64,000 nt of DNA from Erpobdella octoculata. Lineage: Eukaryota > Annelida > Clitellata > Hirudinida > Erpobdellidae. The stretch covers positions 8,816,750 through 8,880,749 of the forward strand of contig OZ022243.1 of NCBI GenBank assembly GCA_963978895.1, given 5' to 3'. Positions within the stretch are counted from its first letter, which is position 1; each line of letters opens with the position of its first letter. Positions 11,323-20,168 of this stretch are shown here, one piece after another. The notes under the pieces were generated by a model. It was given only the letters and a program-made list of their open reading frames with translations. It made no database searches and was not told the DNA's origin. Position numbers and translations under genes: made by a program.

Positions 11323-14300
11323 ATGATCTGGAAGTTACGAGGTGTCGCTTTTGTTGTTATAATATTTTGGTTACCATTCTCAGAAACAGGTTTGTTGGTT
11401 CGGTTTTATTTATTAATAGATTTATAAAAATATTAATTATTGTATTTAATTATGTACAAGAACAGATAATTCAATCAAATATTAATTATTGTACCTATTT
11501 AATTGTGTACAAGAACAGATAATTCAATCAAATATTAATTATTGTACCTATTTCATTGTGTACAAGAACAGATAATTCAATCAAATATTAATTATTGTAC
11601 CTATTTAATTGTGTACAAGAACAGATAATTCAATCAAATATTAATTATTGTACCTATTTCATTGTGTACAAGAACAGATAATTCAATCACTGAGCTATCG
11701 ATTTTTGCCGTTGTTGCATCTCTTCTAAATTAATAAAACAAAATGTCACACAAAGTTTATTCTGAGATAATTAAAAGTTGTTTTTCTAGTTTGTTATTCA
11801 GTGTGGTTCAAAAACAAAAAAATTGGTTATTATTTTCGCAAACTTTGCTTTTGTTGTCAGAAAGATAATAATTGGAAAAGTTTCTAATGTAAGTGTAAAA
11901 CGAAAAAATTGGTCTTTCCATTTACATAACTTTAAAAATGAACAATATTCTAATTAAAGCTATTAAGGGTTTATTCTGAAAACTCAAATAGAAAAACACT
12001 TTAAACATTTTAGAAATAAATATTTTAGTGATTCCATTGTAAATGACTTTCGTGCATTTGTCCACAAATGTAGTTCGGCTTGTCTAAATTACTTTTTTTT
12101 GACCATCTCGGCGTTGGGGCAGTCTAGTTTTGAAAGTACCAAATTGAATCATCATTCGGGGAACCAAAAATGATTTCGACTAGGCGTTGCTCACACATTA
12201 CAGTCATTACATATGATATGATATAATCCGATGTAACCGGTGCCACATGTATTAAAATGTTTTTAGTATCCATGGTGTCTCAAAAGCCAAGATGCCAAAA
12301 AAGTTATATCTCTTTAAATTATCCGTTTTCAATATTTAAAACGTATAATTTATAGCATATAACTATCAGGTGCGGATAAAGGGAAATCATGAAAGTCCAG
12401 ACTCCCTTTCGTTGTAAAATACTTAAATCATTTAGCACTTTACAGGCATGTTTTGCATTGTCTGAAAGCGTAGGTTTAGAGAGTTGCCTTGGGTTCACAA
12501 TAACAATTGCATAACTTTTCTGCATCTTGAATTCTTAACTGGTTTACTTGTCTACATTGGTTTGAACTTACCTCCTTTAAAGGTAATCTAAGCCTTAAAC
12601 AAAAGTATTCTATTTGACTTGTTTATGACACTGTTATTAAAATTGTACAGAATGAACAAAAATTATTATACATTTTTTAATTTATTGATATTGTGCTGTG
12701 AAATTTAATAAATCTTTTAGTAGCATCACATTAGATATAGTTATTTTTAGAAATATTGTTTATCTGCTATAGTTTGTAGGTGTACACAGATACATTTGTA
12801 TAGTGGTACAAAACTTAACTCCAAAGAAGGTCAATAAACTCAACTAACTATACTATTCTACTAAAAACTGTTACACAAATTCAGTTTTTGGCTGACTAAT
12901 TTTTGACCACAATAAAACCTATAAATCTAAAGAAATTCTAAAAATAATTCTCCTACCCGCCCCGTTTAGGCCCCCTTCTATCACTAATTTTGTATCTGAC
13001 CCTATAACTTCAATCAATTTTGGTTTGTCTATCAAACCCTGGAAATTGTTTCCGTGTTACACAATTGAAATGAGGTTTTCCAATTGATAACCAGCAAGTA
13101 TGAAACAAAAAAATTCGCATGCTTTCCTAAAATGATTTTTAGCTTCCGTTTCGATAAATCATTTTATTTATTTTATTTATTTATTTGATAAATTTAAAAT
13201 GGTGTAAATCAAAAGTCTTCGAGGACACATGCAAAAATAAACCGTCAAAATTTAAACACTCAATAAAATTCCATATCAATTCAGAAAATATATTTTCAGA
13301 TATATTTACAGCACAATGCGTCCTGTGAATGTCTGTAATCAAGTGTAATCTCTTGATGCTTGAATTTACATCACTTAACCTATTGTTAAGTAAAATAAAT
13401 ATAATCACTTAATAGCTAAAACTAAACTGAACTAAATAGCAAATTACTATATGAAATGTTCTAGAGTTGAATCCAAGTTTGCTTAGCATTGAAATAATCC
13501 ACAATGTTAAAATAGTAAATCACTGCATGGACCGATTTTTCGCGGTCCGCCCGTTTTTTAGTCATAAAATACTTATGCTTTGCAAAATATCTCGGTCCAG
13601 CCCAGTCGTTTTTCAAGCCTAAAATGCTTATACTTGACAAAAATCTCAGCCCTGTCCGTTTTGGTCCGTCTTGATTTCAGACCCGGTCCGTTTGAAAACC
13701 ACAAAAATCAAGGCCTGATCGTGCAGTAACTCTATATATAAAAGAGCATCATTACCAAAAAAGAAAATGACTTTTTAAATTTTTCAAAAGCAAATAAATG
13801 TTTTGAAACAATGCAACCTTATGTTATATACAATAATAGATTTATTCAACTAAATCTTGGTCAATATAAATACACGGCACCGTAAAACTAAACACAAACA
13901 GTTAAGTGTTGGTTTTATTATTATTCCTATTTGCTTTATCAGAATTATTTGAAATCAGTCAGTCAAAATCTGGACGTCAAAGTTTTGTTAACGGGGATCA
14001 CCAGACATCACTTGCACTTGATGGAAATTCAGAGACTTTCAGCTTCACATTGAATGAAAATAATATAGAAGAGAGTGGCTGGATACAAGTGGATTTGGGT
14101 GGATTCTTCAACATAAGGGCCGTTCAGTTGATCAATGCAAATGGCAACGGTAAAGAATTTCTTAATGTTATGGTCTTTAATAAATATGATTATAAATTGT
14201 AGTAACATAATATTATGTCAGAAATGATTTAAATAGCGATGATGATGATGACGATGGCATAAATTTACAATGCTGGTGACGATGATGTTTTTGCAGAATC

Positions 14301-20168: not shown

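Follow-up and report, generated by a model that had tools for sequence, protein, structure and literature searches.

The gene described here probably encodes a type I cell-surface protein in which a signal peptide is followed by two tandem F-type-lectin-like domains, a Thr-rich stalk of 255 residues and a single membrane span; its role would be in adhesion or recognition. It lies in a 64,000-nucleotide stretch of the Erpobdella octoculata genome (C6:8816750-8880749, GC content 34%; assembly of 386 Mb in 94 contigs), hereafter the window. The domain family, the stalk and the span can be read directly from the sequence, whereas the location at the cell surface is suggested by the role of such parts elsewhere. 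Judged from its sequence, the locus looks like a real animal gene, and its layout is of an ordinary kind among animals. An initial annotation of this DNA had proposed a mucin-like membrane receptor with two domains, a Thr-rich stalk, phase-1 exons and a signalling tail. All of these parts were retained except the signalling tail, which the analysis of the last junction does not support.

Gene layout and exon joins

The exons and related segments are as follows.

11323-11389, plus strand: exon 1, start codon and signal peptide (22 residues), phase-1 end; from frame, hydropathy and exon scan
13943-14149, plus strand: exon 2, first half of F-type-lectin-like domain 1; from Pfam, frame and phase
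14297-14545, plus strand: exon 3, second half of domain 1; from Pfam, donor score and phase
18099-18311, plus strand: exon 4, first half of domain 2; from Pfam, frame and phase
18461-18727, plus strand: exon 5, second half of domain 2; from Pfam, frame and phase
18961-19813, plus strand: exon 6, Thr-rich stalk and membrane span; from frame, donor scores and hydropathy. Possible ends are 19715 (phase 0, removes the span), 19813 (phase 2) and an unspliced stop ending at 19856
19716-19811, plus strand: transmembrane-span segment of 32 residues within exon 6; from codon score and hydropathy
20060-20168, plus strand: candidate exon 7, a 35-residue coding-like frame that needs a phase-2 donor; from acceptor and codon scores

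Reading of the sequence from the ATG at 11323 showed that exons 1-6 join into one open frame. The end of exon 1 at 11389 is joined to the start of exon 2 at 13943 in phase 1, and all five junctions among exons 1-6 are in phase 1 with GT/AG sites. A frame break, which had been named beforehand as evidence against the model, was found nowhere across exons 1-6, and the join of 11389 to 13943 is in frame. The proposal of seven exons in frame thus holds for exons 1-6 and fails at exon 7, where the best phase-2 GT join creates a TGA codon. In the same way, the proposal that every junction is in phase 1 is correct for the five joins of exons 1-6 and incorrect for the last one, because the frame of exon 7 with the motifs YVHP and YSNG needs phase 2. 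Hydropathy analysis showed that both the N-terminus of exon 1 and the segment after the stalk are hydrophobic, in agreement with the proposed signal peptide and membrane span.

Two introns contain repetitive or mobile sequence. Intron 1 carries a tandem repeat with 53-nt spacing at 11443-11707. Two Pif1-like helicase pieces, which we take to be Helitron-like, lie at 15032-15935 on the minus strand, inside the 3.5-kb intron separating the two domains.

Since every junction is in phase 1, phase alone cannot prove the join between exons 3 and 4, and phase-1 junctions throughout would be equally compatible with two genes, namely one for a secreted protein with a single domain, ending at 14565, and another unit from 18099 on. 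The donor of exon 3 is weak (CAA/GTATTT at 14545, score -2.8), and the unspliced frame of exon 3 runs to a stop at 14565, followed by AATAAA at 14601, although hexamers of this type are common in the introns of this gene (2.7 per kb). The presence of helicase pieces in the gap between the domains would also fit two genes. A second gene, however, should have its own start. We therefore scanned the plus strand for an ATG followed by a 12-residue mean hydropathy of at least 2.0 and a phase-1 donor of positive score. Exon 1 has these features, and neither 14566-18098 nor 21.5 kb of other sequence contained a second exon of this type, so that no start was found for the second half from 18099 on. 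In addition, a related protein, P0001, has the two-domain layout in a single open frame. Two separate genes are therefore very unlikely, and we treat exons 1-6 as one gene.

Two F-type-lectin-like domains

Each domain has about 150 residues and is interrupted by one intron. The Pfam models F5_F8_type_C (PF00754) and F5_F8_type_C_2 (PF22633) were above the cut-off in both domains, in agreement with the earlier view of two F5/8-type domains whose coding sequence is divided between two exons each. A profile was then built from nine copies of the domain, two from the window and seven from two other loci of the genome, and was searched against all solved structures; a tenth copy, which lay across two sequence stretches, was omitted. 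Eight of the nine copies match each of the two Pfam models. The best match of the profile was FBP32 (3cqo; 4.2e-24), followed by fucolectin-related protein (1.2e-13), Sm-hPAF (1.9e-13) and eel agglutinin (1k12; 2.5e-12). Neuropilin (1e-6) and factor VIII (4.4e-4) scored lower. The two domains of the window without the profile matched FBP32 at 3.1e-5. By the profile, the nearest solved relatives are F-type lectins, above neuropilin and factors V/VIII, and the domains are not FA58C/discoidin domains proper. Since the profile puts F-type lectins first and the factor V/VIII type well below, "F-type-lectin-like" is a better name than "F5/8-type".

The fucose motif of F-type lectins is given as HX24RXDX4(R/K) in PMC5712786. 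In alignments inspected by eye, the fucose triad (His-Arg-Arg) was missing in both domains: neither contains a His in the segment preceding the conserved Trp or an Arg/Lys in the loop after it. The cation motif h2DGx is nearly matched by ALDGN in domain 1, and domain 2 has ATDGN, with Thr in a hydrophobic position. Because the triad is absent from both domains, the two-domain head, as far as its sequence tells, probably lacks the usual mode of fucose binding. Other members of the F-type family also deviate from the motif, among them CG9095 and some oyster isoforms, according to the same review (PMC5712786).

Split domains and phase-1 modules in the genome

A mid-domain phase-1 donor at the equivalent place was found in all ten copies checked (two in the window, three at C8:1.31 Mb and five at C1:5.59 Mb), and two of these have a phase-2 GT as well. 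A script located the corresponding phase-1 acceptor in seven of the ten. In the three C8 copies, the anchor residue used by the script lies across the junction; there, a phase-1 AG is visible on inspection. A family search of the genome, in which 150 of 247 candidates were scored, gave 56 exon-level matches, seven of them with a stop codon. As expected if most domains are split, 54 of the 56 matches end by position 58 of the 91-position profile, although a weaker second half of the profile would give the same picture.

Class 1-1 modules are described in PMC8001218 as the rule in shuffled animal extracellular proteins, and in oyster sperm bindin, as in the gene of the window, an intron interrupts every F-lectin domain at its middle (PMC5712786). 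Taken with the ten copies, these facts indicate that the phase-1 rule and the split domains are shared features and are not special to this gene. The domain tree had little resolution (one of nine inner branches starred, five open). The two domains of the window score best against the C1 and C8 copies and not against each other or P0001.

Stalk and membrane span

The stalk comprises 255 residues, 114 of which are Thr (45%), with 60% Ser, Thr and Pro together. After it comes a strongly hydrophobic span, in which mean hydropathy peaks at 2.5. The Thr-rich stalk of the initial annotation is thus confirmed, and the protein has the long S/T/P-rich stalk plus span by which membrane mucins were defined here. 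The openness of the stalk frame is by itself little proof, because other frames of the same region are nearly open as well: in 251 codons, one forward frame has one stop and one reverse frame has two. From its composition, the stalk may be O-glycosylated and stiff, and would then hold the two-domain head well off the membrane.

The C-terminal end

The protein had been proposed to end in a signalling tail with YVHP and YSNG, the latter a Grb2-type YxN motif. Both are presumably possible SH2-type sites, which is relevant only if the tail is made. The acceptor of exon 7 at 20060 scored 3.93, the best value in 19830-20165 and within the 95th-99th percentile of 406 local AGs. The YVHP/YSNG frame, however, can be entered only from a phase-2 donor, and 19640-19860 contains two GT sites of this phase, 19813 and 19840. 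Joining donor 19813 (TTG/GTTAGT, score 0.48) to 20060 gives TG/A, that is, a TGA stop across the junction, followed by C. Donor 19840 (TAA/GTCTAT) scored -8.17. The better of the two GT sites thus yields no in-frame cytoplasmic tail with a YxN motif, and the other is very weak. Five phase-2 GC sites, which were unscored, also reach the tail frame (19660, 19711, 19753, 19774 and 19780), two of them before the membrane span and three inside it. GC donors are rare. Phase-0 and phase-1 donors lead to other tails without YVHP or YSNG. A GTTAGT donor is credible in this genome, since at a related copy (C8_D1) two GT sites lie at the mid-domain junction and GTTAGT is the only one in phase 1.

The seven-exon join as first described was ruled out by the TGA at the 19813/20060 junction. 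Since the best join that yields YVHP and YSNG puts a stop at the junction, the signalling tail is not supported: it is unproven, and by the simplest splice it is not translated. The splice weights used here are rounded textbook frequencies, not trained on the genome of this animal. Scores were low at accepted junctions too (-2.8 at 14545, -0.46 at 18727 and -1.61 at 18461), and the cut-offs are therefore rough.

The codon usage of exon 7 points in another direction. As coding sequence, the tail frame scored 8.3 bits, a value reached by 0.7% of 2210 open intron windows, and by 0.3-0.6% with other training sets, in a test with overlapping null windows, three frames compared and a small training set (7833 nt). 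With the torsin-like frame as the sole training sequence, frame C and the tail frame did equally well (0.5% each). The 14 codons of the unspliced end after exon 6, which stops at 19856, scored -1.9 bits and are not coding-like. The strong acceptor at 20060 and the coding-like frame behind it argue that the gene goes on past exon 6. The same two facts would favour a protein that is made with the full tail and signals through SH2 adaptors by YVHP and YSNG. Such a protein would need a phase-2 donor other than 19813, and the choice is then between 19840 with its very low score and the GC sites. No related tail was found elsewhere in the genome at E values up to 1 with one query, built with the 19840 join, and the tail of P0001 is different. 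We consider translation of the full tail unlikely.

A coding-like tail behind a junction TGA is nevertheless a puzzle. After this TGA the next 35 codons are open and coding-like and have their own stop. It could be explained by an unusual donor, an exon that escaped detection, a change that arose recently in the sequenced individual, a mistake in the assembly, or read-through of the TGA. Within 19814-20059 no linking exon was found that could be entered from an exon-6 GT donor scoring above -2, with an acceptor above -1 and a length of at least 9. On visual inspection, the frames could be connected through a stretch near 19917-19966; its acceptor is below the limit of -1, and its donor scored -3.29. 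A search for a second copy or haplotig of 19690-20200 found the window itself as the sole match in the assembly. A search for related tails or spans gave, apart from the two pieces of the window, one weak span-like match, on C8 (E 0.02). In Drosophila, read-through is described as widespread, and only 25% of the events involve UGA (PMC3840789). The idea that read-through of the junction TGA, or the choice of donor, switches the receptor between a tailless form and a form with YVHP and YSNG is nonetheless highly improbable.

The best donor in 19640-19860 lies further upstream, at 19715 (CCG/GTAAGT, phase 0), and its score of 7.56 is far above the next one of 0.48. Joined to 20060, it leaves the frame open and removes the membrane span, so that the main product would be a soluble, secreted mucin-like lectin with a 25-residue end. 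The exon-7 frame entered in this way is not coding-like: it scored -2.6 bits, a value reached by 44% of the open windows and by 43-69% with other training sets. In addition, the span that directly follows this donor is strongly hydrophobic and in frame. It is therefore doubtful that the soluble protein is the main product, while a soluble form made through this donor is possible. The membrane-anchored protein is likely to have a very short cytoplasmic end or none, and would finish either in ...VIIY or in a 15-residue ending with the stop at 19856, downstream of which an AATAAA lies at 19941.

Comparison with known proteins

The protein search for relatives kept one of 1387 candidates, the 426-residue JGI protein P0001, and a second search found P0001 alone among 7641 candidates. 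A third kept nine of 3104: one coral protein and eight from frogs, of which seven have a listed pentraxin domain. All nine were judged by the Pfam domains listed for them. P0001 is similar to the protein in the window in that two F5/8-type domains, a Ser/Thr-rich stretch, a predicted membrane helix and a short tail follow each other in one frame. It aligned to the two-domain query with 25% identity over 73%. The predicted helix covers residues 385-416, with pLDDT 93-94 at residues 391-410, in a predicted fold that is poor overall (mean pLDDT 51). The stalk of P0001 is much shorter, and its tail, RHNKKGSFSEDF, differs from the candidate tail of the window. The sequence starts without Met and is probably cut at its start. 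Since its two domains group together (88/95 support), its layout may have arisen separately. The initial annotation knew of no named family with exactly this layout. None was found in the searches made, and no report of the exact layout was noticed in the open-access literature searched, but the layout is not unique, since P0001 has it.

Among the F-type lectins that gave the best structural matches (eel agglutinin, 1k12, and striped bass FBP32, 3cqo), FBP32 also has tandem domains. Unlike these lectins, the domains in the window have no fucose triad and are carried on a Thr-rich stalk with a span. The intra-domain introns of FBP32 are at another turn of the barrel than those of the window (PMC5712786). 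The passages of that review on oyster sperm bindin describe a variable number of F-lectin repeats, with the triad kept in some isoforms only, and do not mention a membrane span or Thr stalk. Drosophila furrowed and CG9095 resemble the protein in the window by combining an F-type domain with a predicted membrane span, and CG9095 also in the loss of two triad residues, but they carry C-type lectin and complement-control modules (PMC5712786). Pfam found no such modules in residues 1-335 of the protein in the window at E values up to 1; the remainder is stalk and span.

Related loci and other features of the window

At two other loci, such domains and Thr-rich sequence share a strand. At C8:1.303-1.322 Mb (L009, L011), one strand carries three F-type-lectin-like domains and a Thr-rich frame, then three LDLa modules and three trypsin pieces, perhaps all parts of one mosaic protease. 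This locus is similar to the gene in the window in that domains with mid-domain phase-1 donors are followed by a Thr-rich frame. It is different in having LDL-receptor class A and trypsin modules downstream on the same strand, in a putative single transcript. At C8:4.7195-4.7285 Mb (L047), halves of F-type-lectin-like domains share a strand with a Thr-rich stretch that has an LDLa module. In 10-kb stretches around other such domains, taken at nine of 49 loci, domain halves were found in five (L031, L033, L035, L036 and L038), and a simple scan found a Thr/Ser-rich frame in none of the nine.

The window also contains the following features outside the gene.

3421-3735, minus strand: frame with a forkhead domain
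5461-8361, minus strand: 966-residue frame with endonuclease and reverse transcriptase
25754-26239, plus strand: second reverse-transcriptase piece
27638-27976, plus strand: ISXO2-like transposase piece
29150-30925, plus strand: single long frame with Torsin and TOR1A_C domains, preceded by a long N-terminal extension in which a membrane-like segment was noted by eye
32278-32709, minus strand: frame with an SH2 domain
40645-40917, minus strand: partial fibrinogen C-terminal domain (2.6e-22), of recognition type, about 20 kb from the receptor gene

Biological meaning

By analogy with such parts elsewhere, the head would bind a ligand for cell-cell or host-microbe recognition and adhesion. Since it would have little or no cytoplasmic end, and hence no tyrosine motifs of its own to signal through, the protein would function by adhesion or together with a partner. 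A stop made by splicing ahead of a coding-like tail would be unusual, and this is the one point that could raise the interest of the gene. At the level of their sequences, the loci compared suggest that a single phase-1 module, together with a Thr-rich linker, was joined to various C-terminal parts: a span here, and LDLa and trypsin modules elsewhere. The gene adds a membrane-anchored, mucin-stalked F-type-lectin-like protein without the fucose triad to a genome that is rich in such domains.
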